Of a stretch of DNA of 64,000 nucleotides, positions 28,568-63,600 are shown one piece after another. Both the position numbers and the translations under genes were made by a program. Every line of letters starts with the position of its first letter. Position 1 is the stretch's first letter. The stretch covers positions 8,389-72,388 of the forward strand of contig MU129038.1 in NCBI GenBank assembly GCA_014904985.1, in the 5' to 3' direction. This DNA is from Hydnum rufescens UP504 (Eukaryota > Basidiomycota > Agaricomycetes > Cantharellales > Hydnaceae). Under the pieces are notes generated by a model, which searched no databases, was not told the origin of the DNA, and worked only from the letters and a program-made list of their open reading frames with translations.

Positions 28568-31500
28568 TTGTCTTCCCAGATCTCTGCCAATTCTTCTTCA
28601 TCTACTCTTCATCCCAAACGATGGCATTCCAAATATCCAATCGCTGAAGTTGTAGGCTCAGGGCCAAATGGAGTAATTACTACACTGTCAAACCAGCAAA
28701 CATCCAATCTTCCTGCCGTCGAAGTGACTGAGCAATCAACATTTATCGAATCCCACCACTTAGACATCAATTTCGAGCTGGAAATGGCACCTGAGGCCAA
28801 TGTATGTGTTGTCCAAGACAAACTATCTCATCATGCATGGCGGAAACACGCACAGGCTCGTTGGTGGGGTGACGATGTCCTCCCATCACTGATTCGTCCT
28901 TTTATGAGGTTTCAAAGAGAATGGAACACTGGGGCCCAGGTTGATTCCATAGAACCCTGTATGTGTTCGCAGCGTCATCACATACTGAAGATTGTTTGTG
29001 TGCATATGGAATATTTGGAGGACATTGATTTGGTTGTTTGCTCTCGTTGCCCTGCAGCAATCCAGCTTGTGAGCCAGGGATTGTTCCCATGCTCTCCATT
29101 GGCTCTGACTTTGGCTGTGAGCATGGATATGTTGGAGTTTGTATCAGATCTCTTTGTAAATATGGCACCTAATGAATGAGCCTGGGCAGCAACCCTTACG
29201 AAATATCTAAAGGCTCGTGGCCATGAATTTGCAACTGGGGATTCCCTTCATGGACGATTTGCCAATGCTCTCACCCACTATCAAGTTCTTGTTAGACTGG
29301 TGAAGGCAGAGATGACAAAAATCATCAATTCTTTTCGTGAATCATTGAACTCCACTCTGTCCTCTGATCACCCTCCTACCCCTGCACTCAATGAAAAAAC
29401 CTCAATCCCAGCTTGAGTATATCTGAATGCACACAATTTCACCGGGCCTACTAAAGTTGATGGTGCCCTGGAGTGTCCAAGCACATACTTGCAATCATGC
29501 TGTGCTCTTTGCTTCGGAGGGAGGCATGCGGCTGATCTTCAGGCCACTGTCATTGTTTGCATAGATGCAAACTTTCAACTCAAATGCAACCATGACAAAG
29601 ACTAGAGAAAAGGCTTTGAGGGTCAGACAGGTGCCGGGACCCAGAGATATTCTCTCCAAGGACAGTCGAGCTTCTGCAGGCAGACCTTGATGATATGGCT
29701 GCCAGGATCAATGAGGTTCAACCAACAAAGAGTCCAGCTGGAGCAGGCAGGAAGCAAAAGGCAGATGAGTCGGTGGAGGATGATAGAAACAGGCCATGTG
29801 ATGATGATTCCATTGAACCAGGAATGAATATTCCAAATTCTGTTCTTGACACCTGTGGCGACTCATTCATTGCAGCTGATGGTGATCGCATCAAGGCTTC
29901 CACTCAGCACTTTGATGACACAGGGCTAATGGCTATGCTATGTCGGCATGATAGTCCAATCTACATTGCCAATATGCATACTGCTGGTGAAAAACAGTTC
30001 TATGCCTTTGCTCTGATCTCGGCACTCCTCAAAGATCTACCTAAGGATTGGACAGTCAGGCTGTTGTATGATATTGCATGTCAAATCCATCATAGTCTCC
30101 TTAAGTGGAACATCATGCCTGAATGGATGGGACGGATTGAGTTTGGTGTCTCTGTTTTCCATGCTTATGGCCATCAATGGACTTGCCAACTGTGGTATCA
30201 CCCCCGGAAGTCAGAAAAATGGGGTCTGTCTGATGGTGAGGGGTGTGAGAGGTTCTGGAGTGAGCTCAGATGACTTATTCCTGGTCTAAGGGTCACTGGT
30301 GTATGTACATTCACTTGCTAAGCTAAGTTGATGAGATAGACTGATGGTCAATCTCTTGCTAGTACCATCGCCATCTCTTCATAATTGATCTTCAAGTCAA
30401 GCATATAGATGAGCTCAAGCAAGAGGGTGCAGGGAAATGGCTCTGTGATCATGTGTCGCACACTGTAGGACGTGAGGCTCAGGCTCAGGAGAAACTGGAT
30501 GGGGCCTCAGTCCAGTATCTCTTGGGCCAGTTCAAGGAACAGTGCTCTTTTCAAAGCAGACTAGTCCCTCGCCAGTCAAAGACAAAGGGATCCCGTGCAA
30601 TAGAACACATCCTGTCTATGTCCCAGTCTGCAGACTCACTCCGGGTGCATCTGAAGGAACTTATGGACGAGCTTGCAGGTCTTGCAACTGATAATGTGAC
30701 AATTGCAGTGGAGGATGAGCTACGGTTGAATATTACAGAGATACAGGCTAGTGTGCAGCGCCTTGAGAGTAATATTTCAAGAAAGACCCAGGAACTTCAT
30801 CTCTTGGATCAGAAGTCCCACAAGGAGTTGGAGCGGTTAAAGACCAACAAGTGGATAAACCTCCAGCTGAATGTCCGGGTTGTGAGGGACCAGCTCCTGA
30901 TGAAGCTTTGCACATGTAAATTTGAGCTTGTTGGGCTGGAGCATGCTGACACAAGTCACCAGCTGGATCACAAGACTAAGGAGCATGTGGAGAAGGCAAT
31001 GAAGGGTCGAGTCTCTTGGATTCAAGCAACACTGAAGTGATATGAGGATATCCGACAGCAGATGATGAAACTTAGAGGAAAAGGGAATGTTGCAAGGGAT
31101 GCATATATCCCTCCAGAAATTTCATCATCTGTTTATAAGTTGGATGTGGATGAAGATATTTGGCAAGTGCCTCATCATGAGGACATGGCAAATTTTCCAG
31201 ATGGGAGGGTCCCTGCTTGGCTTGCAGACAAAGAAGTCCGTGAGGGCATCCGACATGCCCAGGAGCTGGCAAACTGCCAAGAGGAGCTTAGGTGCTGCAA
31301 AGCTGAACTCTCCAATCTATGTTGCTGGTTCACAAAGCAGTATGCTGCTACCCAGCATGCCTTTGATTTTTGCAATGGTAGGGGTTCCTTCCAACTTGAC
31401 TGAATGTAAACTAACAACTCTGGGGATGTGGACAGATGAAGATGTCAAATTCTTTGTCTTAATGGAGTTACATCACTTGCATGACCTGGTCAACAACTGG

Positions 31501-31761
31501 AAACATCACACAGCAGGACTTCTTGGTAGGGATGGGTGGGTGGACTGGGGAAACATTCCAGACCAACTGCCTCCATTACAGAGGGCATGGGTCTGCCGAC
31601 AAGGTAGAGCCCAGGCTGAGGAAGTTTTATCACCTGGGGAAGAAGAGGCTGAAGAAGCAAGTTCTGATGATGATGAAAATGGGGAGTTGGAAGAAGGACC
31701 TGAGGCAGAGGACCTCACATTCCTAACCTCCCTTGATCTGGTTCTGGGACATGAGGATTAA
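28568..31761 (+). pseudogene. KDZ-family transposase, copy 1
   Basis: Cut-and-paste transposase of the Kyakuja-Dileera-Zisupton superfamily, an RNase H-fold DDE enzyme. In order: an N-terminal region with a CxC-type cysteine cluster (CMCSQRH...CSRC) and GLFPCSP (about 29085); first catalytic Asp in CIDANFQLK (29564); second in LLYDIACQ (about 30070); Glu in GEGCERFWSEL (about 30250); helical C-terminal domain (30453-31040); KLDVDEDIWQ and PAWLADKEVREGI (about 31140-31240); acidic tail ending HED at 31761. A probable intron lies at about 31378-31435 (donor GTAGGG, branch CTAAC). In-frame stops at about 29178, 29416, 29608 and 31040 and a one-base loss near 29635 disable it. The true start was not found. 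Confidence 0.88.
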
Positions 31762-31869
31762 CCTAGCACACTGGTCACAAATGTACTATTAGTTAGCCCC
31801 TTAGACTTAGATGCTGGAGATACCCCCAATATACTATTGTGCCTGGCCAACAAAATGTTCTCAAGTTGC

Positions 31870-32000
31870 ATAATGGGGCCCCATTTGGGTGATGCAAAAA
31901 GATGAAGCCGTGAGGAAGGCTCATTTTGGGGCCATAATAGGGCCCCATTGAACCATAATGGGGCCCCATATGCCCTATTGGAGCCCCATTGGGGCTGATT
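31870..32000 (+). repeat. Subterminal GGGGCCCC palindromes of KDZ element
   Basis: ATGGGGCCCCAT occurs at 31873-31884 and 31958-31969, with variants (TAGGGCCCCATT, GAGCCCCATTGGGGC) between and after. The cluster lies between the transposase stop and the element end, where transposases often bind. It is repeated in copy 2 at about 60760-60880. Confidence 0.75.
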
Positions 32001-32082
32001 CCAATGATTCTCCAATATTGAATTATTGATTGGCACCCCTATGGCACCCCATCACTATTAGATCTACTTAGGTACCAAATAG

Positions 32083-32109
32083 ATTTGATACCTATCATAG
32101 GTATCAAAT
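32083..32109 (+). repeat. Terminal hairpin of KDZ copy 1
   Basis: Perfect 12-bp inverted repeat ATTTGATACCTA / TAGGTATCAAAT with a 3-base loop, at the 3' end of the element. Copy 2 carries the same hairpin at 60631-60657. Just inside it, copy 2 has 8 extra bases (GTGCCCGA) that copy 1 lacks. Confidence 0.85.
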
Positions 32110-32112
32110 ATG

Positions 32113-33737
32113 GCTGACCAGCCTGGATTTCTTGCAGCAATTCCATGCTTGTTTACCAATGCATCCATAACATACTTGTTCTCCTTCAATTCTTCCACTC
32201 TCCTCTTTACCTCTGGGAGTCATAAGGCTTCCAAAAGTTCTCTTCCAAATGTCGGGATTGAAGGAGCATCTCCCTTTAATGAACTGTATGATGGGGTGGC
32301 TTTCACTCTTTGATACTGATCTATCATCAGCTCTTCTTCTGTAATGCTGGTAGGTTCTTGTTCTGTAGGTGATTTTGGTGGAATGACTGAAGTGGAGTTG
32401 ACTAGCTTCGTCTTTTCTCATGATTCATTTACTAGTGCTTGCATTAGTACTGACAATTGGTCCATATCCCCATTCTGGAAAGCCTGGATTGTCATTCCCC
32501 CTTTTCCTTCTTTTACTCCATATGATATTTGGGCACCCATATCCATAAGCCAAGGTTGACCTAACAAGACATCATGGTCCGCAAATTTCCCATTTTTAAC
32601 AAAGAAATGATGATCGAAATGTATTCCACCTATTTGTACTTGGACATCTCGACAACATCCTAATAGAGGTTCAGGTCCACTATTGATTCCTTGAAGTGAC
32701 CAATGTTCTCCATCATGATCCATTGGGATGTTCAGTTTCTCCATGGCATCACTTGAGATTAGATTCAATTCGGATCCTGAGTCGATCATTAGAGACACAT
32801 CTTCTCTTCTCATCACCTTACCATTAACCTTCCCTGTGGCCACCGCAAACATCCTCCTTGGTTTTGCATGGGTCAGATGAGCCCTATACAACCATTCCCA
32901 AGGTTCTTTCGCATCTCCTTCAAACTCCAATCCTTCTTCTGATGATTCATCTGATGATTCACTAATTTCTCCTTCTTCGTATGCTGCAGAGTTCACAGTA
33001 AGAGGGTCCCTATACTTGTTTGTTGGTTCCCTTTTTAACTTTAGCCCAGCAGCAAACAACTTAGCAGGCCCAGGTGCTATTCCAAGAAAGTCCCCTAAAG
33101 ATATTTCTATCTTTTGATTTAATACCTTTTTTACTACTTCCTTGTCTTCACATGCATCCTGAAACTCAGTTGTAAACTTGAATGCTGGTCCACTCTTAGG
33201 CAAATGTTTCTCTGAAGAGTCCACTTCCATTTCTATGTCTTCCTGTTGAATGTTGTTCCTGAACTTGACATTCTTTATCTTTTCTTCTGCTGAAAGCTGT
33301 TCTTTTGGGAGTGGTTCCTTGGGTTTATGATTTCTTTGTAATATCACCACCTGGGGATGTTTCTCTTCAGGTTTCTGAGTATCAGCTGATGGAGTTTTTG
33401 TTCTTGCATCGAGAAACGGAGTTGAAATGACTGGGGGTGGTGGAAAATGCAGAACATAGGCTGGTTTTGGCTCTTTTTCTGGGCCCTTTTTAACCTCCTG
33501 TGGCCGCATTTTCTCAATTTCATGTTCATCATCTACCTCCATTTCCACAACTGGTTGCTGGGATGGAATGGGGCGAGTTTCTGGTACAGGATGTGCTACA
33601 TTTCTTGGTGGTATCTCAACAGTAACTTGATGCTTAGGCAGACAAGAAACCTTGTTGTGGGGCCTCTCACTGATGGGAGTATATCTAACTTCAGGCTTGT
33701 CAGACTTTGCAACTGGATTGGCTCTTGGTTCTGCCAT
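32113..33737 (-). pseudogene. pro: Protease and linker of a Ty3-A relative
   Basis: The retroviral-type aspartic protease processes Gag-Pol. ATG at 33737 (MAEPRANP) follows the Gag frame; a proline/lysine-rich linker leads to FKFTTEFQDACEDKE and LGDFLGIAPGPAK (about 33190-33050), matching the Ty3-A remnant. The active site DSGSE is at residues 319-323 (about 32783), followed by the flap region and VLLGQPWLMDMG. TGA at 32418 is in frame and pol-like sequence continues (TEEELMIDQYQR, AARNPGW) to about 32113, where the KDZ element interrupts. The 439-codon frame is one of the longest intact readings here. RT and the rest are absent. Confidence 0.85.
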
Positions 33738-34997: not shown

Positions 34998-35655
34998 GGT
35001 CAGGTTTTGGTCAGGTTTTGCCCAATTTGGGCAAAACCTAAACCTGACCAGGTTCCAAAATCACCCATGAGGGCAAAACCTGAACCTGACCTGAGGTTTG
35101 GTCTCATTCAGGTCAGGTTCAGGTTTAAACCTGGTTTAAACCTGAAACCTGAGGTATGAGGGAAGCCAACATTTTCAGGGGGTACTACACAATATCTACA
35201 CCCTCTGCTCAAGTCTCTGCCTCTGCCACTCCCTTTACATCCTGCTTTAGATCCACATCTCCTTCCTAGCCCCCTTTCACTTCAATTTACTGCTCACACA
35301 TCTTCTGGAGATGGTATTTAGTCACTACATTCTGTCATGTGACTTGTGACCTGCACCAATTACCTCATTTGATGGCCAAGTCATGTGACTTCTGACTCCA
35401 GAACTATAGTCACATGTGTAAATTGCCAGATTTGGTGCCAGAATAGTGGTCAATTTACATGGAATAGAACCTACACCCTACCTTTCAGGTTCAGGTTTAA
35501 ACCTGGTTTCAGACCAGTTTTTGGATTCAGGGCAAGGGCAAAACCTGAACCTGACCTGAAGAAAATGAAATGAAACCTGACCCCAATGGAACCTGACCTG
35601 GGTCAGGTTCAGGTTTAAACTCAGGTTCCACAGGTTTAAACCTGAACCGCAGCAT
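34998..35655. repeat. Foldback repeat with AGGTTTAAACCT motifs
   Basis: Two clusters of CAGGTTCAGG and AGGTTTAAACCTG-type motifs in both orientations (34998-35155 and 35480-35655) bracket about 320 bp of unique sequence. The clusters are mutually inverted, so single strands could fold back. This is typical of a foldback or MITE-like element. It cuts the Gag at its left edge. No ORF of note inside. Confidence 0.65.
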
Positions 35656-35672
35656 CCATAATGGCAAGATGA

Positions 35673-35706
35673 GTACCACACACCCGCTTCAGCGGGTGTG
35701 TGGTAC
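35673..35706 (+). repeat. Exon hairpin, unit A
   Basis: Perfect 15-bp inverted repeat with a 4-base loop: GTACCACACACCCGC, loop TTCA, then its complement. It ends 7 bases before the intron A donor. Counterparts are at 37581-37610 (13 bp), 37825-37852 (12 bp), 45379-45410, 45689-45724 and 45969-46003 (13 bp), with different stem bases but kept pairing. Confidence 0.85.
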
Positions 35707-35712
35707 TATGAG

Positions 35713-35821
35713 GTATTTTTTCTTTAAAATTTCTGTATGTACAGTGACGCCAAAGGAGCAGCTTGCACTGCTCCTTTGGCGTCACTTCAAATTTTTTCAC
35801 TAACATATGTTATCATTCTAG
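35713..35821 (+). other. Intron-like segment A with internal hairpin
   Basis: Donor GTATTT at 35713, branch-like CACTAAC near 35798, acceptor TTCTAG ending 35821; 109 nt. Inside is a perfect 18-bp inverted repeat with a 6-base loop (35744-35785; left arm GTGACGCCAAAGGAGCAG). The stem shares its position and GGAGCAG-like core with the other introns but has different bases in both arms. Confidence 0.6.
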
Positions 35822-35882
35822 GATTGAATTTGAAGCTCCTGAAACCATGACAACAGACAGCTGCGACCCCCTAATGACCCGC

Positions 35883-37510
35883 TGTGGAAGATAAAAACAT
35901 CCAGTATCAGAAAATGCGAAATCACACCACTCCCAGCCTTTGGATGATCACATGACCAATTACGAAATTAATTATGGCTACGTGTGGAAATTGAATTCGT
36001 TCTATAACTCTGTCAGTTTTGATTGGAGAGGTACGCCCATATAACTCTTAGAAAGCTATGATTCACACCTTTCAAACGGTACCAAACACAAGTCGAACGG
36101 ACCAAAACTGCACTCTCCAGGCCAATTGTACTACCAAAATCCGAGATTTCCAGTAAAAAATGAATTTCTCCATCAGTTCGCATTCAATCCTCTCGGAACA
36201 ACCGCGCCTAGAAAGATATAAAAAATCGGCATCCAACAGTACTGAGCACGCGAAGAACAGATCAAAACTGAACTCTACAGAATGACATTACTATCAGAAT
36301 CAACACCCATCAGTAAAAAATGAATTTCTCTGTCAGTTTACACCAGATCTTCTCGGAACCACTGCGCCCAGAAAGCTGTAAGAAATCCGCATCTAATGAT
36401 ACCAAGAACGTCTATTATGGATGCAAACTGGTGTTTCTGCATCGAATCCCATCCCATGCACTTGTCCCCATTATCAACCACCAACAAAACACCTTAACCA
36501 TTGGACTATGCTCAAATTAATCTCCAAAACCCAGAGATATCCTTTCATTTTGCCTCCAGAATGCTCCACATGGTCAGTGACCACATGCTCCAAGCATTCC
36601 ACATGCTCAGCAAATTGGTGACATCACCCCTCCTCATGATTCCTTTTGTTCTCTTTATGAATGACTCAGCTATGACCGCATTATTACATCATCTTGTTAT
36701 TTTTCTTTTGTTCTCACCTATGACTCACATATGACTCACCCATGGGGGAGTCATATTTCTTAAACACAGCCACCTTCAGAAAGGTATAAAAGCTGGTAGA
36801 TTTCCTGTACCCCCACACAATCATCTCCTCTCTGGAAATCATCACTGTCAACCACTGTCAACTTTTCTGCTTGCCTCTAAAGAACAGTCTATCTATAAGC
36901 CATCTGGAGCTAAGTCATCTTCAAGGTTGTTGAGACAAAGCCACTGGTAGCCCTCTACGCGAATCACTAAAGCCAAGGATAGTTGCAGGACCTAAGGTTA
37001 GAGTTGCTGGACATCCAAGGAAAAGTAAGCATAATGAAATACGTATCAGGTTTTGAAGAAAGAAGAAAGAAACATACTAACAAGACTAACCAAGCACTGA
37101 TCAGTCTATAACCTGCAGATATCCGCATTTTGACCAGGAGAATGTAAACAAGACTACACAAATATCAGTAAACAGACCAACACAACACGAACGACATATA
37201 AGCCTTTCCACAAGCATCCCAGATGTATAAGCCTTTCCATAAGCATCCCACACAATGTATAAGCCTTTCTACAAGCATCACAGACATATAAGCCTTTCTA
37301 CAAGCATCCCAAACAATATATCATTGACTACAGCTAGTCCATATCCCTTCCTATTCTCCACTGAACACCATACACGTCTTGCAGAGTGTGATCAACCATT
37401 GAAGCGAACCAGCCCAATGAATAATAACAGAAATACAGTCTCCCATCTACACACTGGCTGAACCAGATTTTGATTTGACAGTCATCGGAGCTCCCAACCC
37501 TTCTTCTATA
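35883..37510 (+). mobile_element. Solo LTR of Ty3-A in hairpin gene
   Basis: 1628 bp, the same length as the solo LTR at 13763, with the same ends TGTGGAAG and CTTCTATA. Flanks are CCGC (35879-35882) and CTGC (37511-37514): a 4-bp target duplication with one CpG change. Removing it rejoins one open exon of the surrounding gene. TATA box near 36785, U5 repeats at 37195-37315. Confidence 0.93.
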
Positions 37511-37618
37511 CTGCTCAATGGTGAACCGCCAAGTCATGCCCACCCAAGGCAGCAGTGCCTGGTACAAAGCAAAGGAAGGTACCACACACCTGCTAGGGCA
37601 GGTGTGTGGTGCTACTAA

Positions 37619-37720
37619 GTACATGTTTTTTTAAATTTTTATATGCAAGTGGTGCAAAAAGAGTAGCGATAGCTACTCTTTTTGCACTGCTTTGAATTTC
37701 TAACTTCATGTTTTTTCCAG
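37619..37720 (+). other. Intron-like segment B with internal hairpin
   Basis: Donor GTACAT at 37619, branch TTCTAAC near 37699, acceptor TTTTCCAG ending 37720; 102 nt. Contains a perfect 16-bp inverted repeat with a 4-base loop (37652-37687; left arm GTGCAAAAAGAGTAGC). The exon hairpin B (37581-37610) precedes it. The codon phase joins cleanly into the next open exon. Confidence 0.6.
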
Positions 37721-37860
37721 ATTCTCATGCAATGAATACCACCCAACACCTGGCAATATGCCCCCTGAGCCTGCATCTGAACATCAGATGGCCCTGTCCA
37801 AGCTCCTGATGAATCAACGGAGTGTACCACACCTGCTACTGCAGGTGTGGTATGTTGTTT

Positions 37861-38040
37861 TAGTTGAATTTTTAGATAGATAAATAAATAAGTTAATAAG
37901 AATAAAATAGAAGACTGCCAAATGAAACCTGCCCCCACCTGGGGGTGGTATATTTATAATGATAATGATAATAAATAAATAATTATAAATGAAGCACCAG
38001 AGGGGGAATATAATAATAAATAATGGTGATTATCCCCAAT
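37861..38040. repeat. AT-rich simple sequence
   Basis: Low-complexity GATAAATAAATAAG- and AATGATAATGATAATAAATA-type runs, with a short GC-rich CCCCACCTGGGGG inverted repeat near 37933. It follows exon hairpin C and a GTATGT donor-like site (37850). No intron hairpin is recognisable here, so unit C is incomplete. Confidence 0.7.
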
Positions 38041-38246
38041 AAGCCCGTATAGTCCACTGTTGTCTGAGAATCTCTAAGTCCCAGTTTCGGCCAATTTTCG
38101 GCCATTTCGGCCAATTCTGGGCCAGGAGGTGAAATCATAAAAATGGCCATTTCAGCCAAAATAGTGATGGGACCTACTTAGGTACCATTATCTGCCCCAG
38201 AAGTGGTACCTAACTAGGTAGGCTTAGATGACTGACCAAGGTGCCG
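38041..38246. repeat. Short inverted-repeat cluster
   Basis: TTTCGGCCAA/TTCGGCCATT repeats (38085-38125) are followed by their inverted counterpart near 38140-38160. A hairpin at about 38168-38220 pairs CCTACTTAGGTACCA with TGGTACCTAACTAGG. The CTACTTAGGTACCA box also occurs near the KDZ element end (about 32066). Probably remnants of a small DNA element; no gene. Confidence 0.5.
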
Positions 38247-38579
38247 GCAGAGTCCACTGTGGTCATTGTGGGCATCACATGAATCCATTTGGAGAGTTGG
38301 TCGATGACAATCATCACACTGCCAAATCCATGTGACTCTGGGAGCTCCATGATCATGTCCACTGATATGACTTGCCATCAGCGGTCTGGGACCAGATTAG
38401 GGTGGAGAGTTCTGGATGGTTTGGATGGGAAGGTTTTGGTCCAATTGCAGGTGTCACAGGTGGAAACATAGGTTGCAACATACCGTGACATCCCCGGCCA
38501 CCAGTAGTGGCAAGACACAAGTTCATATGTCTTCCATCATCCAGGGTGGCCTGTGGTTGGGGTGTTGTGGTGTTCATGG
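38247..38579 (-). pseudogene. pol: Integrase fragment, Ty3-B copy 1
   Basis: Matches 47985-48310 of copy 2: the zinc-finger end CDTCN and the start of the catalytic core, including SVDMIMELPE. It is the continuation of the pol reading at 39932, separated by the LTR-like insertion. It breaks off before the second catalytic Asp. Stops include a TGA near the former CRWQV segment. Confidence 0.8.
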
Positions 38580-39931
38580 TGTTGGAGGGATAAATCCCCA
38601 CCACATAGAATTCACATTACCACCCAACTACCTCCTCAAATGAATCCAATATGTTCAATTCTGCCTCCTCCATTTCTCATCATTCCGTTTATTATTAAAT
38701 AGCATGGATTCCCCTCTTTCAAAACCGTGGCCTACTCACTTCTCCTCCACCTTGTATATGAGACAATTATTTGTCCACCTCCAGGTCTTCAACAGACCAC
38801 CTGATTTTGGATTTACCTTGAGTCCAGCCAATTGTGGCTTTGGCAATTCAACTTGCCCTCTTCATTGATGCTCAATCCAGTCTTCTGTGCCATTGCCTCA
38901 AGGGTGATATATGAGTCCCAATTATATAATCAATATTTCCTAATCCTTTGGATCCAACTTGCGGATTAGTCACATGTTAAATAGGGCTATTCCCATACTC
39001 TCAAGGAGTATTTCGCGAATATCTCCCTCATTTTTGATCGGATCGACTTGGCAAGATAGCGCCCAGAAAGCTACGATCAATGCCTATCCAATGGTACCAC
39101 ACAAACATCTATCAGATACAAACTGCATCCTCTAGGTCGATGTTACCTCATGCTCCACACTATCCTTCAGTATTTCACAAATATCTCCACCAGTTTTGAT
39201 CCAATTTGTTATTAATGACCACCCCTGGAAAGACGCTGAAAGTCCGCATCGAATGGTACCAAGGTAGAAATGAGCAGATTAGAACTCGGCTTTCTGTAAT
39301 TTAGTCTCCCCATGTCTCATTTCACTTTTACCTCCGCTTTTCTGATTATTAAAGGCAATTATGGTTCCAGCACCCTATGTCCGATGGAGGGTACATCTAG
39401 GGCGACCAGTTCCACCTTTCCCTAAGGGATTCTGTTCAGTAGGAGAGGAGGAATACCTTGGTAAAGCCATATTCCCCTGTTCTGACTTGTTAATTGAATA
39501 TCTCCTTCAGTTTTCAAGCTTTTGACTTGATTTCTTTTTCATCATTTTCGCCTTAATCCCACATTTCTGCCGGTTACCATAGCATTTTTCTGTGATGTAT
39601 ATTAAGTGCAGGAGATGCGAATTTCCATTGTCTTTCCCCTCATCCCCAGTTTTGAAGGCTTAACAAACTGCCACTGGTCCAAGGGTAAACTCCACAACAC
39701 AAGCACTACTTATCACACTTTTGATAGGTTCTCAAGAGGAGGACTTGGTGTGTGATTTGATCCCTTCATTCACTGTTTAGATAGTCTCTATCAGAGCAGT
39801 ACATTCTCCCCTTCCAAAGACCATTCCTTCTCAAGGACCTGAACACCCAGATTGATTCCATGATCCCTCTTTTCATTCTCCATCTCATATTGTGGACTGT
39901 AGCTGGATTCAACTCCTAATTCCCGCTTACA
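38580..39931. mobile_element. LTR-like insertion (LTR-C) in Ty3-B copy 1
   Basis: 1352-bp insertion with ends TGTTGGAGGG and CCCGCTTACA, the canonical TG...CA of LTRs, flanked by the 4-bp duplication ATGG (38576-38579 and 39932-39935). Copy 2 near 48308 shows the uninterrupted site, so the ends are exact. Its interior shares blocks with the Ty3-A LTR (AGAAAGCTACGAT, GGTACCA) and its right half is homologous to 49912-50564. Best read as a solo LTR of a Ty3-A relative. It holds no ORF of interest. Confidence 0.85.
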
Positions 39932-41530
39932 ATGGACTAGGTCATGACAGAGTTTGGAGTCCAGTGGAACATAGACATGTCTGCAGAAAAGGACCAGAGA
40001 CCCTTGGAGTTCCCAATCTTTCAGGTGAGCCTTTGGGCCATCTCTGTTTAACTCCTTGATGATCTGGACTACTTTGTCATCAATCTCCATTGCCCTTTTG
40101 ATCTGAGCTATCAAGCTCCAACTAGGTCCTTCCACTGCCACAACCTCTGTGGTGTCTAGGGCACGGGACTGGAAAGTGGTTAGCTTCAGTAGGACTACAT
40201 TGGAGTTATCAGAGTCTCCTCACGGGTGGTCTGGGCGCCATGAAAGAGCATCCAGTTTCCCTGACTGTGATCCAGAGCAGTGCTGGAGGGTGAAGTTGAA
40301 CTGGGAAAGGAAAATATTCCAGTGGGCTTGTCTCCAATTCAGCTTCTGTGCAGTCTGGAAGTACTGAAGGTTCTGGTGGTCTGTCAAGATCTCAATCGGA
40401 TGTGGAGAGCCCTCTAGGTAATGTCTCCATGCCTCCAGAGCTCAGATAATGGCCATGAGCTCCTTGTCATAGATGTCATAATTCCTCTCAGCCTCTGACA
40501 GACTTTTTGATAGGAAACCTACTGAGTGCCACTTTCCATCCTCTTGGAGCTGGGAGAGTACTGCTCCAGTTGCATATCCAGAGGCATCAGCTTCCACTTG
40601 GAAGCATCCAGACTCAGAGGGAAAGACTAGGATCAGCATGGAGGTGACAAGGGATTTCAGTTTGATGAAGGCATTACGTTCAGCATTGACCCATTGAAAG
40701 GGAATGTCCTTCCAGGTGAGATCATTCAAAGGTCTGGCAACCTTAGCGAAATCCTGGATGAACCGGTGGTAGAAGTTGATGAATCCAAGGAATGACTGTG
40801 TCTCCTTCAGGTTCTTGGGTTCCAGCCACTCCATCACACCTGTGACCTTGATAGGGTCCATCTCCACATGATCTGGGGTGAACACCATCCCTAGATACTC
40901 AATCTGGTCCCAGAAGAACTCACACTTTTCGGGTTTCAAGAAGAGGTTGTTCTCCCGGAGTGTCTGCAGGATCCCTTGGACACCATGGACGTACTCCTCC
41001 CAGGTCTTGGCAAAGCTTAGGATGTCATCCAGATATACGATGCACACTCCATTGTCGATCCATTCCCGGAGGACATCATTGATCATGTTCTGGAAGGTAC
41101 CTGGAGAGTTGCAAAGTCCAAAGAACATGACCAAGGGTTCAAACAGTCCTTGGTTAGTCCGGAAAGCTGCTTTCCATTCTTCTCCATCTGCCATCCAGAT
41201 ATTCTGGAAGCCCCACCACAAGTCCAGTTTCCCAAACACTTTGGCTCCTTGGAGTCAGTCAATGACATCAGAGATCAGAGGTAAGGGGTATGCATTCTTG
41301 ACCATGATGTCATTGAGTTTCCAGTAGTCCTGGACTAGCCGAAAACCTCCATCTTTTTTCTTCACGAAGAACACTGGGGCAGCCATAGGGGATTTGGAAG
41401 GGCAGATATGACCAGAGGCCAGGTTTTCCTTCAGGAAGTCATTGAGTTCCTTTTGCTCTGCTGGGGAGAGTGGGAAGAGTTTGGCTGGGGGAGGTAGCTG
41501 GACTCCCTTGTTAAACTCAATGTGGTGATC
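39932..41530 (-). pseudogene. pol: RT-RNase H-integrase N-terminus, Ty3-B copy 1
   Basis: RT runs from [15 protein letters not shown] (about 41490) through [26 protein letters not shown] and the catalytic YLDD (about 41040). RNase H keeps its first Asp in VEADASGYATG, plus YDKELMAII and [10 protein letters not shown]. The longest clean frame is 41239-40442. An in-frame stop lies at 40442. The integrase N-terminus (LDSKLCHDLVH) is cut at 39932 by the LTR-like insertion. WW in LDLWWGF and similar residues suggest CGG to TGG changes. Confidence 0.88.
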
Positions 41531-42434
41531 CCATGGTTTCCGGCCAGGGAGCTGATCAAAGGAGTCCTATCTCGGAAGTCACGGAATTCCTCTGGGACAA
41601 GCTCCTCAAATGTCTTCACTGGCTCATTTGCTTTGGCTTTCGCAGCCTCCAACAGTCTCTGAGAAGGGGTGCTCATTGCTCAGACAATCTCAGAGTGCTC
41701 AGTGTCACTGGGGAAGTAAGCTGCAAAGATGGCATCTCCTTTTTCCAGTGTCAGGGACTCATTAATGTCATCGGCATCATCCTCCATAGGAGTGGGAGGT
41801 GTCCAGGGTTCTTCCAATGTCTTCCTGGAGGTTCTCCCTCGCCAATGTTCCACATTCTGCATCTTCCAGATCACTACACGACAGTCAGATGGACACCAGG
41901 TCAGTGTGACTTCCCCAGTTGTCCAGTCGATCTCTGGGTTGTGATGGTGAAGCCATGTGTGCCCTATGATCAGCTTGGTTTTCCCCAGTCCAATCACAGA
42001 GAACACTACCTGCTCAGAGTGATCATTGATTCAGAGGATGACCTCAACCTCTTCACAGACAGACCCCATTTCATTCAGTGTTCCATCAACATTGTAGACA
42101 GGGATCAGGCATGCAAGGGGTCGTATGTCTAGACCATTTTCCTTTGCGAAGGTCAGGTCCATGAACATTCCAGTGGCTCCAGAGTCCAGTAGGGCCTTTC
42201 TGGCACAGATCGCTCCAGTCTGCAGTGATTGGATTTTCACCTTGATCTCTGTGGCTCGTCTGGGGTCTTCGGAAAGGAGGCAGATAGAAGGGGGAGGGTT
42301 ATAGACAGGGTCAACCTCAGTTGATATGCTTTCAGATTCGTCACTCTCATTGTTGGAGAAAAACATGTCATTTCCGACTCCATATGTACAGTTTTCAAGA
42401 GAGGAGAATCTGTTGGTCAGGCAGGATGCATCCT
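41531..42434 (-). pseudogene. pol: Protease and PR-RT linker, Ty3-B copy 1
   Basis: Aspartic protease with active site DSGATGMFMD (about 42190-42160) and later LIIGHTWLHHHNPEIDW (about 41975-41925), which closes the fold. Pol appears to begin in an overlapping frame near the Gag stop (SLENCTYGVGND, about 42400). In-frame stops at 42028 and 41677. The linker to RT (41531-41810) is intact here but deleted in copy 2. Confidence 0.82.
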
Positions 42435-43531
42435 TCACTGCTGACTATTGGGAAAATCCTGCAGAGGTGATCCCTGAGCTTCTGAGGCATTCTTCGGAGC
42501 TGGGAATAGTTTCTGTAACTCCTTGTGGATGATTGCTCCAATGTCTCCATGGCGCAGATGAGTTGTTGTGGCTTCTGCGGATGGGGACAGTCATGAGAGA
42601 TGTGTCCCAACTCTTGACAGTTATAACACCATCATGCCTCTTGTTTCTGAGTTGAGTCTACATCCATGGGAGTGAATGAAGTTGACAAGGAGGGTGTTGG
42701 TGCAGGAGGGAGTGTGGTCGGTCTGGGAGTGACAGGTGCTGCTGTCTGGGGTTTCTCTGTGGATGTCAGGGGGTTTCTCAGAGTGTATGGGGTTGTACTG
42801 GACGTGGCTTGTCGGAACCAGAGATATAGGTTATCCAGATGCCGTGCTGTGTCCTGCCATCCTCCGAGTGTCTCTGGCAGATCACTGAGGTGCATTTTTT
42901 CCAACAGTCTTTCGTTGAGGCCCTGCTGATATGCATCAATCAATGCTTCCTCTTCGAATCCAGTCCATCCTGCCAAGGCGTCAAAGTGTGCAGTGTATTC
43001 CTCTGCAGACATCTTCCCTTGTTTCAGATTCTGGAGTAGGGATCGTGCAGTGAACTCCTGGTCCAGTTCTCCAAAAGTGCTTTCAAAGGCAACTAGGAAC
43101 CCTTCAAAGGTCTCATATGGATTCTGGGTTTCCAGATCTAGGAAGGAGGTGGAGAGACTTTCCACCCATGCTCCAGCAGTTCCATCCTTCATCCAGGAGA
43201 GTGTGTACAGGATTTTGTGCAACTCTGTCAGATAGACTCTAGGTTGGAGGGCAATGTTCAGGCAGACGGAGCATAGGAAACTCTCCATTTTCTTCTGATT
43301 GCCAGAGAATGGTTTGGGGTCAGCCCCCTTGGCCTTGTGAGCAGACTGGGTAGGCGGAGGGTGCTGCTGGAGTGTCTGCTGGACTGCAGCCAACACAAAG
43401 CCAGTGACATGCATCCCTTGGTTCCACATGTCATCCAGCTCCTCATGGAGGGTGGCATTTTGTTGTTGGAGTTGGGTGAGGAGGTGTTGGAGGTGGTCAG
43501 CAGTAATGGCTACTGGAGCACCGTCAGACAT
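42435..43531 (-). pseudogene. gag: Gag, Ty3-B copy 1
   Basis: ATG at 43531 (MSDGAPVAITADH). A coiled-coil-like LQHLLTQLQQQNATLHEELD is followed by the retrotransposon Gag capsid domain (PKPFSGNQKKMESFL, FEGFLVAFESTFGE, FTARSLLQNLKQGKM) and a Pro/Thr-rich linker. TGA at 42632 lies just before the zinc knuckle CYNCQELGHISHDC (CX2CX4HX4C). A one-base loss near 42555 relative to copy 2 shifts the C-terminus. Intact length would be about 365 residues. Confidence 0.88.
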
Positions 43532-43596
43532 TTTGGAATGAGGAGTAGGAGGGAAATCGGCGATACTAAGCAATCCAGATGGTGGGCTCATGAGAG

Positions 43597-43607
43597 AGCT
43601 TTGGTCT
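43597..43607 (-). other. Self-priming site, Ty3-B copy 1
   Basis: On the minus strand AGACCAAAGCT starts two bases after the LTR end. It is the exact complement of AGCTTTGGTCT inside the LTR (43862-43872), placed about 34 bases downstream of a TATAAG box, where the RNA should begin. No TGG-type tRNA primer site is present. Confidence 0.72.
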
Positions 43608-43609
43608 TC

Positions 43610-44181
43610 TGTCAGGGCCACACTGCGATGAGAGCACCAAACAAATATAAACACAGATAATTCCAGCTAAGTCCGGTGTAAGTCCAGCTAAGTCCAGGAG
43701 AATCTGGGCAAGAATGAGATAACAAGGATAGGAGGGGATGGAGAGGCAGTCCAGTGGCCTGGAGGGGACTAGGCGGAAATGAGCACAGCGGTCCTTAAGC
43801 TCACAGAGTCAACTGGAAAGTACTCAGACCTGTAGTCCAGAGTAACAGCAGAAATCCTGAGAGACCAAAGCTGGGGTCTCTGGACTTCACTCTCGGACTA
43901 CTTATACATGATGACTATACTACAGGGGAATGATCGCTAAACTGGGGGTGGTTACAAGGGGGACAGGAACAGGAACAGGAACTCGGCCAGGGGCAAACCA
44001 GAAGCAATGGGAAATGAAAGGGAAATGAAACCAAGATAGGGTTGGACCGGAGTCAAACTGGAATCAAGCCGGAAGCAAAGTGGACTTGGGTGAAGGAAAT
44101 AAGTGGAGAACCAGACTGGAGGTGGGTGGACAAGGACTGGAGTGATCCGGAGTGGACCGGAGTAGGGGGCAAACCCTGACA
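43610..44181 (-). mobile_element. 5' LTR of Ty3-B copy 1
   Basis: 572 bp with 8-bp inverted ends TGTCAGGG / CCCTGACA. Contains TATAAG and the 11-base self-priming donor. It is about 60 bp shorter than the LTRs of copy 2, which carry a partial tandem duplication around the TGTAGTCCAGAG block. Confidence 0.93.
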
Positions 44182-45210
44182 GGCATGTTAGTAAAAAGTT
44201 CCAAAGCAGCACAAAAAGAGCAGCTTTTGCTGCTCTTTTTGTGCCATTGTATCTACTAAAAAGAAACACTCACCTTGTGACCACACACCTGCAGCAGTGG
44301 GTGCATGGTCATGCACTTGCCTTTTTGGGTGGTGGCTTGTTGTGGTTGCATAAATGGAAGGAAGATGTAGATTCAACACTGGCAATTGCTGATACTCAAG
44401 AAGCGCCCAAGTGCCAGCACTACAAACACAGCACACATTAATAGCAAGCATGTATATGTGAAATAAATACTATATAATAAATATGAGCCCAGGAAAATTT
44501 GAAGAAGACAATGATAATGAGTCAGAGCTCAATAAGGCATGAGATGGCTAATTGCAAAGTGGATTGGGCCACTTCTACACATTGGAATTGGCCCAAATTT
44601 AAATATAGTGATGTTATATATACAACCTATGTGGTTGATTGATTATCTTGGACAATTCTTGCATTTTTCAATTTTTCACACCTTCAATTCCCTATTTAGG
44701 GAATTGAAGGCATGAAAAATTGAAAAATGCAAGAATTGTCCAAGATAATCAATCAACCATGTAGGTTGTATATATAACATCACTATATTTAAATTTGGGC
44801 CAATTCCAATGCATAGAAGTGACCCAATCCACTTTGCAATTAGCCATCTCATGCCTTATTGAGCTCTGACTCATTATCATTGTCTTCTTCAAATTTTCCT
44901 GGGCTCATATTTATTATATAGTATTTATTTCACATATACATGCTTGCTATTAATGTGTGCTGTGTTTGTAGTGCTGGCACTTGGGCGCTTCTTGAGTATT
45001 GGCAATTGCCAGTGTTGAATCTACATCTTGCTTCCATTTATGCAACCACAACAAGCCACCACCCAAAAAGGCAAGCACATGACCATGCACCCACCACTGC
45101 AGGTGCGTGGTCACAAGGTGAGTGTTTCTTTTTAGTAGATACAATGGCACAAAAAGAGCAGTGAAAGCTGCTCTTTTTGTGCTGCTTTGGAACTTTTTAC
45201 TAATGTGCCT
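44182..45210. repeat. Near-perfect 1.03-kb palindrome
   Basis: Left arm 44182-44694 and right arm 44697-45210 are inverted copies around a 2-base centre in CCCTATTTAGGG (44690-44701). Mismatches are few, such as CACATT versus GCATAG near 44579 and 44813. Each arm carries one unit of the hairpin-exon gene (exon hairpin plus intron hairpin) and about 400 bp of AT-rich upstream sequence. The left end coincides exactly with the chromovirus LTR end. Confidence 0.92.
44209..44244 (-). repeat. Intron hairpin, inverted unit in left arm
   Basis: Perfect 16-bp inverted repeat GCACAAAAAGAGCAGC with loop TTTT and its complement. It is the mirror image of the hairpin at 45147-45182 in the right arm, where the loop is TGAAAG and the stem 15 bp. 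Splice-like signals are on the minus strand here (ACTCACCTTGTG near 44270 is the inverted donor). Confidence 0.8.
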
Positions 45211-45223
45211 TTATTTATTTTAG
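45118..45223 (+). other. Intron-like segment D with internal hairpin
   Basis: Donor GTGAGT at 45118, branch ACTAAT near 45199, acceptor ATTTTAG ending 45223; 106 nt. Internal perfect 15-bp inverted repeat, loop TGAAAG (45147-45182; left arm GCACAAAAAGAGCAG). It lies in the right arm of the palindrome; phase 0 joins HK to IEAASNAR. Confidence 0.6.
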
Positions 45224-45419
45224 ATTGAGGCTGCATCCAATGCACGACAAGAGCCCAAACACCAACGCAACACACAGCAATGCAACATGGTAGCACAACA
45301 CCCGGCAATGTGACACAGCAATGCACCAAGTGGCAACGTGCCAAACGAGGACATGACCACATCAAATGACACCCCAGGAATCACACACCTGCCACAGTGG
45401 GTGTGTGGTTCCATATCAG

Positions 45420-45538
45420 GTAAGTTCCTGCCCCCCCCAGTAGCTACAGCCATGCAAAAAGAGCAGTGAAAGCTGCTCTTTTTGTGTGGTGTTCTATTCT
45501 TAACTAATTTAAAACTATTATTTTGTAGGTATGACGAT
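45420..45538 (+). other. Intron-like segment E with internal hairpin
   Basis: Donor GTAAGT at 45420, branch TTAACTAAT near 45500, acceptor TTTTGTAG ending 45538; 119 nt. Internal stem GCAAAAAGAGCAG with loop TGAAAG (45454-45485), paired except for a G-T at the base. Exon hairpin E at 45379-45410 has one C-to-T change that still allows G-U pairing in RNA. Confidence 0.62.
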
Positions 45539-45739
45539 AACCTGCAAAACAACGAGAGCAACACCACACATGGCAATGTGACACAGCAATGCAATACACA
45601 ATACAGGAACATGACATGCCGATGACGTGACATGTGGCACCACACCAAATGAGGATGCAGCCCATGGCAACACACCAAAGAAGGGCCCAGAATCACACAC
45701 CCACCATGGCGGGTGTGTGGTTCTGGTTCTATATATAAG

Positions 45740-45846
45740 GTAAGTCCCCTCCCCTCAGTAGCTACAGCCATGCAAAAAGAGCAGTGAAAGCTGCCCTTTT
45801 TGCATGGTTTTTAATTTCTAACTAACTTAAAAGTTTTGTCTTGTAG
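45740..45846 (+). other. Intron-like segment F with internal hairpin
   Basis: Donor GTAAGT at 45740, branch CTAACTAAC near 45818, acceptor TCTTGTAG ending 45846; 107 nt. Internal stem CATGCAAAAAGAGCAG with loop TGAAAG (45769-45806), one mismatch. Exon hairpin F at 45689-45724 has one pairing change of the C-to-T type. Confidence 0.62.
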
Positions 45847-46008
45847 GTCTCCATGTCCCCTGCAAATGAATACTGAGGCAAAACCCTGGTCCCCCCCTCC
45901 CTCATTGATGCCCAAATGACAGGCACCCATACAAACCCCCATATGTACGAGTGAGAGTACACAGCCCCAGTACCCCACACCACTGCAGTGGGTGTGGGGT
46001 ACTACAAG

Positions 46009-46117
46009 GTATTTTTTTTTTTTTTAATTCCTTATTCTTGTGGCACAAAAAGAGCAGCATAAGCTGCTCTTTTTGCGCTGCATTCATGTTTAACTAATTC
46101 ATTAACTACTTCTCTAG
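46009..46117 (+). other. Intron-like segment G with internal hairpin
   Basis: Donor GTATTT at 46009, thymine run, branch TTAACTAAT near 46090, acceptor TTCTCTAG ending 46117; 109 nt. Internal stem GCACAAAAAGAGCAGC with loop ATAA (46043-46078), one mismatch. Exon hairpin G (45969-46003) is a perfect 13-bp stem AGTACCCCACACC. Confidence 0.6.
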
Positions 46118-46273
46118 ATATTGGACCAGAACCCACACAAACCCCTGACCACAGACCCACTGAATGACATGCCCAGAACAAAAACCGGTCAACTCAGTCA
46201 GCCACAAATGTAGGTCTAGTTAGATATTACGAGCCTTGCATTTATATAGTCTAACTAGAGGTTTTGATGCTGG
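46118..46273. other. Flank between hairpin gene and chromovirus
   Basis: Possible further exon sequence after intron G. A short inverted repeat, TCTAGTTAGA (about 46213) and TCTAACTAGA (about 46250), brackets some 27 bases, perhaps a remnant of a small element. No gene assigned. Confidence 0.4.
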
Positions 46274-46278
46274 GGCCC

Positions 46279-46909: not shown

Positions 46910-46923
46910 TCACCCCCCTCTTA
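46910..46923 (-). other. Polypurine tract of Ty3-B copy 2
   Basis: Minus strand TAAGAGGGGGGTGA directly before the 3' LTR start. A purine run at this place primes plus-strand DNA synthesis in LTR elements. Confidence 0.85.
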
Positions 46924-46958
46924 GGGCCGATTGTCCTGATTGGCCGGAGGAGTGGGGA

Positions 46959-50564: not shown

Positions 50565-50600
50565 CCAGGGTTCTTCTGGTGTCTTCCTGGAGATTCTCCC

Positions 50601-52294: not shown

Positions 52295-52359
52295 TTCGGA
52301 ATGAGGAGTGGGAGGGAAATCGGCGATACTAAGCAATCCAGATGGTGGGCTCATGAGAG

Positions 52360-52370
52360 AGCTTTGGTCT
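52360..52370 (-). other. Self-priming site, Ty3-B copy 2
   Basis: AGACCAAAGCT on the minus strand, two bases inside the 5' LTR end. It is the exact complement of AGCTTTGGTCT in the LTR (52703-52693), which starts about 34 bases after TATAAG (52737-52732). In Tf1 of fission yeast the first 11 RNA bases prime reverse transcription in this way. Confidence 0.75.
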
Positions 52371-52372
52371 TC

Positions 52373-60400: not shown

Positions 60401-60630
60401 TTTCTCCAGGTAGCATGGAGTTAAGGCCAGAAAACAACAGGTTGAAAGGGGGACATGCTGGAATGGTGCCAGGGTTCTCCAACAGTCCCAATAGTTCCTC
60501 AGACATATCCTTCTCCCAAAGGGTATTGGTGTATTTGAGTACCCAGCCTTGGATACTGACAAAACGGTTGTCAGAGATAGGCCATTCACTGATGGCATCT
60601 TTGAAGACCAAGTTCAGGCTGGTCAGCCAT
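57439..60630 (-). pseudogene. Decayed ~1050-codon hypothetical gene
   Basis: I do not recognise it. A single minus-strand frame runs from about 60630 to 59331 (NLVFKDAISEWPISDNRF; CRWLEAVQFFLLDLND; LVVLLVKSRDRELPEAA) with stops at 60255, 59775 and 59627. It slips by one at a cytosine run (59338-59347) and continues open from about 59330 to 57772 and, past one TGA, to 57439. The second half has an acidic start (VEDDEELCLND), a Pro/Leu repeat (about 58820-58600), then DWYHIEFFGVTANIDIKAIF and ELHPFPLPPGADASLQ. The 5' end is cut by KDZ copy 2 at 60631. No transposase or enzyme motif is evident. Confidence 0.55.
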
Positions 60631-63600
60631 ATTTGATACCTATGATAGGTATCAAATCTCGGGCACTATTTGGTACTTAAGTAGGTCTAATAGTGATGGG
60701 GTGCCATAGGGGTGCCAATCAATAATTCAATATTGGAGAATCATTGGAATCAGCCCCAATGGGGCTCCAATAGGGCATATGGGGCCCCATTATGGTTCAA
60801 TGGGGCCCTATTATGGCCCCAAAATGAGCCTTCCTCACGGCTTCATCTTTTTGCATCACCCAAATGGGGCCCCATTATGCAACTTGAGAACATTTTGTTG
60901 GCCAGGCACAATAGTATATTGGGGGTATCTCCAGCATCTAAGTCTAAGGGGCTAACTAATAGTACATTTGTGACCAGTGTGCTAGGTTAATCCTCATGTC
61001 CCAGAACCAGATCAAGGGAGGTTAGGAATGTGAGGTCCTCTGCCTCAGGTCCTTCTTCCAACTCCCCATTTTCATCATCATCAGAACTTGCTTCTTCAGC
61101 CTCTTCTTCCCCAGGTGATAAAACTTCCTCAGCCTGGGCTCTACCTTGTCGGCAGACCCATGCCCTCTGTAATGGAGGCAGTTGGTCTGGAATGTTTCCC
61201 CAGTCCACCCACCCATCCCTACCAAGAAGTCCTGCTGTGTGATGTTTCCAGTTGTTGACCAGGTCATGCAAGTGATGTAACTCCATTAAGACAAAGAATT
61301 TGACATCTTCATCTGTCCACATCCCCAGAGTTGTTAGTTTACATTCAGTCAAGTTGGAAGGAACCCCTACCATTGCAAAAATCAAAGGCATGCTGGGTAG
61401 CAGCATACTGCTTTGTGAACCAGCAACATAGATTGGAGAGTTCAGCTTTGCAGCACCTAAGCTCCTCTTGGCAGTTTGCCAGCTCCTGGGCATGTCGGAT
61501 GCCCTCACGGACTTCTTTGTCTGCAAGCCAAGCAGGGACCCTCCCATCTGGAAAATTTGCCATGTCCTCATGATGAGGCACTTGCCAAATATCTTCATCC
61601 ACATCCAACTTATAAACAGATGATGAAATTTCTGGAGGGATATATGCATCCCTTGCAACATTCCCTTTTCCTCTAAGTTTCATCATCTGCTGTCGGATAT
61701 CCTCATATCACTTCAGTGTTGCTTGAATCCAAGAGACTCGACCCTTCATTGCCTTCTCCACATGCTCCTTAGTCTTGTGATCCAGCTGGTGACTTGTGTC
61801 AGCATGCTCCAGCCCAACAAGCTCAAATTTACATGTGCAAAGCTTCATCAGGAGCTGGTCCCTCACAACCCGGACATTCAGCTGGAGGTTTATCCACTTG
61901 TTGGTCTTTAACCGCTCCAACTCCTTGTGGGACTTCTGATCCAAGAGATGAAGTTCCTGGGTCTTTCTTGAAATATTACTCTCAAGGCGCTGCACACTAG
62001 CCTGTATCTCTGTAATATTCAACTGTAGCTCATCCTCCACTGCAATTGTCACATTATCAGTTGCAAGACCTGCAAGCTCGTCCATAAGTTCCTTCAGATG
62101 CACCCGGAGTGAGTCTGCAGACTGGGACATAGACAGGATGTGTTCTATTGCACGGGATCCCTTTGTCTTTGACTGGCGAGGGACTAGTCTGCTTTGAAAA
62201 GAGCACTGTTCCTTGAACTGGCCCAAGAGATACTGGACTGAGGCCCCATCCAGTTTCTCCTGAGCCTGAGCCTCACGTCCTACAGTGCGCGACACATGAT
62301 CACAGAGCCATTTCCCTGCACCCTCTTGCTTGAGCTCATCTATATGCTTGACTTGAAGATCAATTATGAAGAGATGGCGATGGTACTAGCAAGAGATTGA
62401 CCATCAGTCTATCTCATCAACTTAGCTTAGCAAGTGAATGTACATACACCAGTGACCCTTAGACCAGGAATAAGTCATCTGAGCTCACTCCAGAACCTCT
62501 CACACCCCTCACCATCAGACAGACCCCATTTTTCTGACTTCCGGGGGTGATACCACAGTTGGCAAGTCCATTGATGGCCATAAGCATGGAAAACAGAGAC
62601 ACCAAACTCAATCCGTCCCATCCATTCAGGCATGATGTTCCACTTAAGGAGACTATGATGGATTTGACATGCAATATCATACAACAGCCTGACTGTCCAA
62701 TCCTTAGGTAGATCTTTGAGGAGTGCCGAGATCAGAGCAAAGGCATAGAACTGTTTTTCACCAGCAGTATGCATATTGGCAATGTAGATTGGACTATCAT
62801 GCCGACATAGCATAGCCATTAGCCATGTGTCATCAAAGTGCTGAGTGGAAGCCTTGATGCGATCACCATCAGCTGCAATGAATGAGTCGCCACAGGTGTC
62901 AAGAACAGAATTTGGAATATTCATTCCTGGTTCAATGGAATCATCATCACATGGCCTGTTTCTATCATCCTCCACTGACTCATCTGCCTTTTGCTTCCTG
63001 CCTGCTCCAGCTGGACTCTTTGTTGGTTGAACCTCATTGATCCTGGCAGCCATATCATCAAGGTCTGCCTGCAGAAGCTCGACTGTCCTTGGAGAGAATA
63101 TCTCTGGGTCCCAGGCACCTGTCTGACCCTCAAAGCCTTTTCTCTAGTCTTTGTCATGGTTGCATTTGAGTTGAAAGTTTGCATCTATGCAAACAATGAC
63201 AGTGGCCTGAAGATCAGCCGCATGCCTCCCTCCGAAGCAAAGAGCACAGCGTGATTGCAAGTATGTGCTTGGACACTCCAGGGCACCATCAACTTTAGTA
63301 GGCCCGGTGAAATTGTGTGCATTCAGATATACTCAAGCTGGGATTGAGGTTTTTTCATTGAGTGCAGGGGTAGGAGGGTGATCAGAGGACAGAGTGGAGT
63401 TCAATGATTCACGAAAAGAATTGATGATTTTTGTCATCTCTGCCTTCACCAGTCTAACAAGAACTTGATAGTGGGTGAGAGCATTGGCAAATCGTCCATG
63501 AAGGGAATCCCCAGTTGCAAATTCATGGCCACGAGCCTTTAGATATTTCGTAAGGGTTGCTGCCCAGGCTCATTCATTAGGTGCCATATTTACAAAGAGA

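Follow-up and report, generated by a model that had tools for sequence, protein, structure and literature searches.

Introduction

Two hairpins per unit are known from the double-hairpin elements of fungal mitochondria, which are not known to carry splice signals. The array described here combines two hairpins per unit with splice-like signals, and it lies in a 64,000-nt stretch of contig MU129038.1 of Hydnum rufescens UP504 (assembly GCA_014904985.1, positions 8,389 to 72,388, forward strand), referred to below as the window. At a probability of about two in three, we read this array as a fragment of a high-copy non-autonomous KDZ (Kyakuja-Dileera-Zisupton) transposon with a predicted spliced, non-coding hairpin cargo, whose stems are kept, at least in part, by strand switching at the DNA level. 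Hydnum rufescens belongs to the Cantharellales and is ectomycorrhizal (PMC7550596).

Introners and repeated stwintrons are also repeated intron-like sequences with splice signals and a symmetrical structure (PMC8469720, PMC9024468). Unlike them, the array introns are clustered within a larger transposon, and insertion into host genes is not among their observed features. Homogenised arms together with an inverted spacer have been published as one mark left when inverted repeats undergo template switching (PMC8604942), and template switching has been proposed both to create and to maintain RNA hairpins (PMC8794818). The array hairpins resemble such short inverted repeats in arm homogenisation and exact spacer inversion between close relatives (PMC8604942, PMC8794818, PMC3820800), and differ from them in forming a very large homologous set within a single element family, every hairpin lying beside a predicted splice donor.

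As for KDZ transposons, the elements of Cryptococcus have terminal inverted repeats and target-site duplications of 8 bp (KDZ1) or 4-8 bp (KDZ2, KDZ3) (PMC12810828), and duplications of 8 bp are given for Zisupton and Dileera and of 7 bp for Kyakuja, which has no terminal inverted repeats (PMC12730594). The array elements share with these transposons the 8-bp duplication (as in Zisupton, Dileera and KDZ1), the inverted ends and the CA...TG termini, and they have the canonical 15-bp terminus in common with the KDZ elements of the window itself. Unlike the KDZ transposons as described in the cited passages, they have an interior of paired-hairpin exons and introns with a central palindrome, and no transposase was recognised in two complete copies. 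Our search of open-licence PMC papers on hairpin introns, introners, KDZ families and Hydnum transposons found no description of such arrays in the text excerpts covered. Covariation is commonly read as strong evidence of a functional RNA fold. With thousands of homologous hairpins showing covariation and loop inversion in one genome, the shares of selection and strand switching would be open to direct measurement.

Results

Hairpin units in the window and across the genome

A first-pass annotation of the window had described six units (A, B and D-G) with paired exon and intron hairpins and splice-like signals, and all six were found at the positions given there. They have one plan in common: an exon hairpin, a donor-like GT, an intron hairpin, CTAAC or CTAAT, and AG. 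A seventh unit (C) is inverted. Hairpins were taken from the structure scan, while donors, branch-like sites and acceptors were placed by eye.

35672..35821 (+): unit A; exon hairpin 35672-35707, donor GT 35713, intron hairpin 35743-35786, CTAAC 35800, AG end 35821, intron 109 nt
37579..37720 (+): unit B; exon hairpin 37579-37612, weak donor GTACAT 37619, intron hairpin 37652-37687, CTAAC 37700, AG end 37720, intron 102 nt
37825..37852 (+): lone exon-type hairpin from the sequence and the hairpin scan, no intron hairpin downstream
44181..45210 (no strand): central palindrome, arms of 514 nt, 96% complementary; proposed divergent promoter
44188..44311 (-): unit C, inverted; imperfect exon hairpin 44278-44311, minus-strand donor 44273, intron hairpin 44209-44244, branch-like site 44188-44192, 3' end lost to retroelement sequence ending at about 44181
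45080..45223 (+): unit D; exon hairpin 45080-45113, donor 45118, intron hairpin 45147-45182, CTAAT 45200, AG end 45223
45378..45528 (+): unit E; exon hairpin 45378-45411, donor 45420, intron hairpin 45452-45487, CTAAT 45504, AG end 45528
45690..45846 (+): unit F; exon hairpin 45690-45723, donor 45740, intron hairpin 45768-45807, AG end 45846
45969..46117 (+): unit G; exon hairpin 45969-46003, donor GTATTT 46009, intron hairpin 46043-46078, CTAAT 46094, AG end 46117

The hairpin scan (stem of at least 11 bp, at most one mismatch) returned 21 hairpins from the window versus 1, 2, 3, 0 and 0 from five Markov shuffles, and the region of unit F (45678-45850) had an RNA fold z of -6.09. Units A and B are set apart from the other units by retroelement-derived sequence (reverse transcriptase 40442-41254).

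The search of the genome for further units, which had been proposed together with the six, yielded thousands of hairpins of both types. In 63.2 Mb, exact search found 2807 matches to the intron stem (CAAAAAGAGCAG N4-10 CTGCTCTTTTTG) and none to its reversed control, and 2967 matches to the exon stem (CACACCYGC N2-10 GCRGGTGTG), again with none for the control. The hairpins are far more widespread than first noted. Among the matches listed, which came from the first contigs, hairpin copies were mostly clustered, a few hundred bases apart. The hairpin had no match in a collection of viral contigs, which may omit records close to the window's genome. In stretch L057 (8248-8611), repeats about 85 nt apart each contain the hairpin TCTCTCCGTCAGTGACGGAGAGA or a one-base variant of it.

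Array elements share a terminus with KDZ transposons

In two stretches the array was found within a complete element with inverted ends and an exact 8-bp duplication, measuring 6497 bp in L058 (CAAGGAGC/CAAGGAGC) and 6350 bp in L061 (CCCTATCT/CCCTATCT). The right end of both is CAGGCTGGTCAGCCA, and the left ends are CAACCTGGTCAGCCA and CAACCCGGTCAGCCA. A strict pattern of terminus plus subterminal sequence gave 131 exact matches genome-wide (53 + 78) and none in the control. The same type of end is found in the window, where it belongs to KDZ elements or lies next to the array:

28749..32125 (+): part of a KDZ-transposase element, the presumed origin of mobility; PF18758 29620-30273, right terminus TGGCTGACCAGCCTG 32111-32125
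46190..46278 (+): left terminus CAACTCAGTCAGCCA... and subterminal palindrome of a further element with the same end type, immediately past the array; retroelement sequence TGTCAGGG... breaks into it at 46279
60615..64000 (-): second KDZ copy, inverted; terminus CAGGCTGGTCAGCCA 60615-60629, runs off the window

The window's KDZ elements have a 15-bp right terminus identical to that of the array elements, and close to it lie a subterminal palindrome and palindromes of the type GGGGCCCC. Their transposase domain was recognised by Pfam (PF18758, E = 2.8e-46), with a CxC1 match at 28547-29179 below cut-off. The left end of the first copy was not found within the window. The two copies are inverted relative to each other and 99.5% identical over 3386 bp, and the identity ends exactly at the termini; such a pair reflects recent movement or duplication. 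Genome-wide there were at least 154 KDZ matches, from 150 scored of 584 candidates.

We call the arrays non-autonomous KDZ elements because of the shared terminus, more than because of the 8-bp duplication, and a KDZ transposase presumably mobilises them in trans. Inspection by eye picked out no transposase among the open frames of at least 90 aa in L058 and L061; one of these, the antisense frame P0001 of L058, was scanned against Pfam and had no match. At C56 and C142, going by coordinates alone, KDZ matches were placed 2-3 kb inward of an array-type terminus; about one case of this kind would arise by chance, and these matches were not used.

Units carry splice-like signals in fixed order

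To gather units by sequence similarity, without regard to structure, nhmmer was run with unit F as query against the window and 45 of 61 loci, overlapping loci being excluded. It gave 298 matches, 108 of them nearly full length, and these formed an alignment of 96 units after removal of duplicates and rows containing N. A donor GT was present in 89 of the 96 and GTRNGY in 86. The signal order of a spliceosomal intron, with GT donor, CTRAY branch site and YAG acceptor, was found in 83/96 units, and the median intron length was 106 nt (range 91-116). Loop length was nearly constant (6 nt in 94/96 intron loops; equal in 96/96 exon loops of the alignment) despite variable loop sequence. Among hairpin pairs gathered by structure, the gap contained GTRNG in 100 of 125 pairs in exon-to-intron order versus 27 of 129 in the opposite order, the latter being largely the same pairs on the other strand. 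A simple intron caller often picked a GT within the exon hairpin, and the resulting exon table was not used. The arrays are probably spliced and non-coding.

Exons taken as up to 90 nt upstream of the hairpin (94 of the 96) contained 35.6% A, 30.9% C, 23.1% G and 10.4% T. They had been described as open or broken only by TGA. This is explained by the T-poor composition, and coding gains no clear support: the three frames held 89, 63 and 90 stops versus 85, 82 and 82 after shuffling (standard deviation about 8), so that the middle frame is about two standard deviations low and no frame is clearly stop-depleted. Open frames of about 90-220 codons cross the exons on either strand. Searches for protein homologues with two array-derived queries, a sense exon and P0001, found none; P0001 runs antisense across exons and introns and is therefore a weak test of coding. 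Coding exons were rejected on the stop counts and the two empty protein searches. In Rfam, window positions 35000-47000 had nothing at the gathering score and 12 sub-threshold matches.

Units point away from palindromic centres

Palindromic centres were located by sequence motif, and within 2.5 kb of 24 such centres 156 of 180 units pointed outward (93/107 on the right, 63/73 on the left). The simplest reading is that two divergent transcripts would start from a palindromic promoter. Units A and B point right though they lie left of the window's centre at 44181-45210, and they therefore come from another module or a displaced piece. Stretch L059 has two palindromic centres, at 3342-4042 and 5972-7008; modules are therefore chainable, and transcripts would converge between the two.

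Stems covary and loops are inverted between close relatives

When the stems were imposed on the 96 units, 93.0% of 2912 pair cells were standard pairs compared with 37.5-51.7% in slid versions, and changes on both sides were seen at 19 of 31 stem pairs. Double-change cells numbered 125 versus 61 +/- 6 in shuffled alignments, with 0/500 shuffles as high, although the aligned copies are related and the stems form part of the query itself, which makes the cells interdependent, and the counts overstate independence. The covariation first described for the stems of six units thus held, beyond chance, in a larger alignment. RNAalifold applied to the same 96 units recovered the intron stem for the most part and little of the exon hairpin; of the 18 pairs that it returned, 12 were changed on both sides.

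A larger set, found by a profile of the 96 and including them, comprised 281 oriented units in 36 stretches. In this set the core intron stem (columns 120-131 with 141-152) was 97.5-99.6% Watson-Crick, and whole pairs were swapped, for example A-T to G-C in 31 units and to C-G in 23. One core pair followed genome-wide was A-T on both sides in 2807 copies and G-C on both sides in 647, with one-sided mismatches in 22 + 16 = 38. Sequence identity reached 0.958 in the core stem, possibly inflated by a query that contained the stem. The donor and the branch site followed with 0.835 and 0.823, the remaining intron had 0.63-0.65 and the outer stem 0.562. Such strong conservation in the core suggests that a further constraint acts on its sequence.

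Loops were compared in the 241 of 281 units with a scorable intron hairpin. A control with 6-nt loops reversed or complemented was biased by the fixed C...G ends, and the count was redone on the inner four bases. There were 125 unit pairs at least 95% alike outside the intron hairpin, and 39 of them differed in the inner loop: 26 by a single substitution and 9 by an exact reverse complement, with 0 reversed and 2 complemented. At 90% flank identity the figures were 25 reverse-complement, 1 reversed and 6 complemented of 157, the inversion signal being clearest between close relatives. The loop was oriented opposite to at least half of the close relatives in 16 units, at about 8 sites by eye; the unit at 1501 of stretch C113:167522, for instance, has the loop CTTTCA where relatives 99% alike have CGAAAG.

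Exact loop inversion with an unchanged stem between close relatives, as expected of a template-switched inverted repeat, was thus observed, and it points to DNA-level strand switching at the hairpins. Strand switching can yield compensatory changes without selection. Because loops are exactly inverted between near-identical copies, stem pairing alone is no proof of selection for an RNA fold, and the earlier statement that both arms changing together points to selection was too strong. Mismatches at CpG pairs were strand-symmetric (G-U : A-C = 50:45, 44:44, 47:51, 49:57), as expected for DNA-level decay.

Discussion

In the mechanism that we propose, a KDZ transposase would move the array element in trans through the shared terminus CAGGCTGGTCAGCCA. 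The interior consists of one or more divergent modules, in which a palindrome of about 0.5-1 kb would act as a two-way promoter and is followed on each side by a T-poor, apparently non-coding chain of predicted exons with introns of about 106 nt. Each exon ends, shortly before the donor, in a hairpin of up to 17 bp. Between donor and branch site each intron carries a hairpin of 12-19 bp, whose loop is mostly 6 nt long; this hairpin would reduce the effective intron length to some 65-70 nt and could aid splicing of the transcript. The perfect stems seem to be maintained, in part at least, by events on DNA, and the exact loop inversions make template switching from one arm to the other the most likely of these. 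If this is true, a transposon has taken a spliced-looking non-coding exon array as cargo. A bolder version, which we offer tentatively and think rather unlikely, is that the transposon makes a non-coding, divergent, multi-exon RNA of its own, with every donor bracketed by two self-repairing hairpins, and that this RNA, its lariats or its hairpins serve the element. Such an RNA could speed the splicing of a long non-coding transcript, misdirect host RNA silencing or present binding sites, and template switching would preserve the hairpins in their thousands with no need for selection on each of them.

Several observations weigh against the reading of a strand-switching, non-autonomous KDZ transposon. 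Compared with the KDZ terminus, the left end of L058 deviates at 2 of 15 positions and that of L061 at 3, and among the elements examined none had both a KDZ gene and hairpin arrays. Exact duplications were present in two of the three stretches with both end types; the third, L057, has one left-type and two right-type ends, which may belong to different elements, and no duplication by eye. A duplication of 8 bp is not peculiar to KDZ elements, as hAT elements usually have the same length (PMC12730594). Regarding strand switching, the loop control was weaker at 85% flank identity (68 reverse-complement, 24 reversed and 24 complemented of 642), and gene conversion from oppositely oriented units could be an alternative source of loop inversion. 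G-U exceeded A-C by 333:131 over all intron stems and slightly, by 207:173, in exon stems, and this excess leaves selection on RNA possible. A large part of it came from few columns, with related copies counted as they stand; given the intron-stem excess, the symmetry at CpG pairs and the dominance of few columns, the comparison of G-U with A-C was indecisive as a test for RNA-level selection.

The alternative that has most in its favour, and that we regard as quite possible though we do not prefer it, is a structured, spliced non-coding RNA whose exon and intron hairpins form within the transcript and serve as recognition sites for the spliceosome, an RNA-binding protein or Dicer, and whose pairing is kept by selection alone. 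The strong covariation, the fold z of unit F, the G-U excess in intron stems and a core stem more conserved than donor, branch site and intron background all fit it, and exon stems gave G-U:A-C = 51:24 once columns 16/58, 21/57 and 23/55 and two CpG pairs were left out. However, those columns were chosen after the counts had been seen, the G-U excess is uncorrected for relatedness, the core conservation is perhaps inflated by a query carrying the stem, and both the loop inversions and the near-equal G-U and A-C counts at CpG pairs point to events on DNA. A different constraint would apply if the hairpins were palindromic DNA-binding targets (12+6+12, 9+4+9) of a dimeric protein, for example a subunit of the transposase or a protein regulating the element. 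Near-constant loop length with variable loop sequence and the highly conserved core arm argue for this, but it leaves the fixed placement around the donor unexplained, a conserved binding site has no need of variable outer arms that match, and the hairpin scan showed that the KDZ-copy stretches in the window are without such arrays; we consider it unlikely.

Two further explanations had been put forward with the first-pass annotation, and both now appear very improbable. Introner-like or double-hairpin mobile units, inserting singly and creating introns, would account for thousands of hairpin copies and for the splice signals in the examined units. Spread as part of a mobile element is supported and spread as single small units is not, since the ends and 8-bp duplications bound the whole element of 6.3-6.5 kb, although no search was aimed at duplications around single units; the clustering of the listed copies speaks against single insertion as well. 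A repeat-encoded protein with the exon peptide THPxxRVCG and structured introns would agree with the long open frames through the exons on either strand, and it loses its ground where 10.4% T accounts for this openness, stops are not clearly depleted, the two array-derived queries have no homologue and P0001 has no Pfam match.

Neighbouring features of the window

The window is rich in transposons, with Gypsy-type and KDZ domains in the Pfam scan. Its Gypsy-type reverse transcriptase region (40000-41000) had 40 scored matches genome-wide among 139 candidates, many about 93% identical. Another retroelement, at 46279-53012, is apparently inserted in the GGGGCCC palindrome of the KDZ-type terminus; it has TG...CA ends and an apparent 5-bp duplication GGCCC, by eye. 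On the minus strand at 53378-60254 there are several open frames of 125-527 aa with no Pfam family over cut-off. They lie downstream of the KDZ-type left terminus at 46190 and are possible accessory genes of that element. A hairpin ATATGACTCACC..GAGTCATAT or a close variant, apparently of another repeat family, occurs at 14670-14697 and 36729-36756 of the window and at about 6400 of L058.

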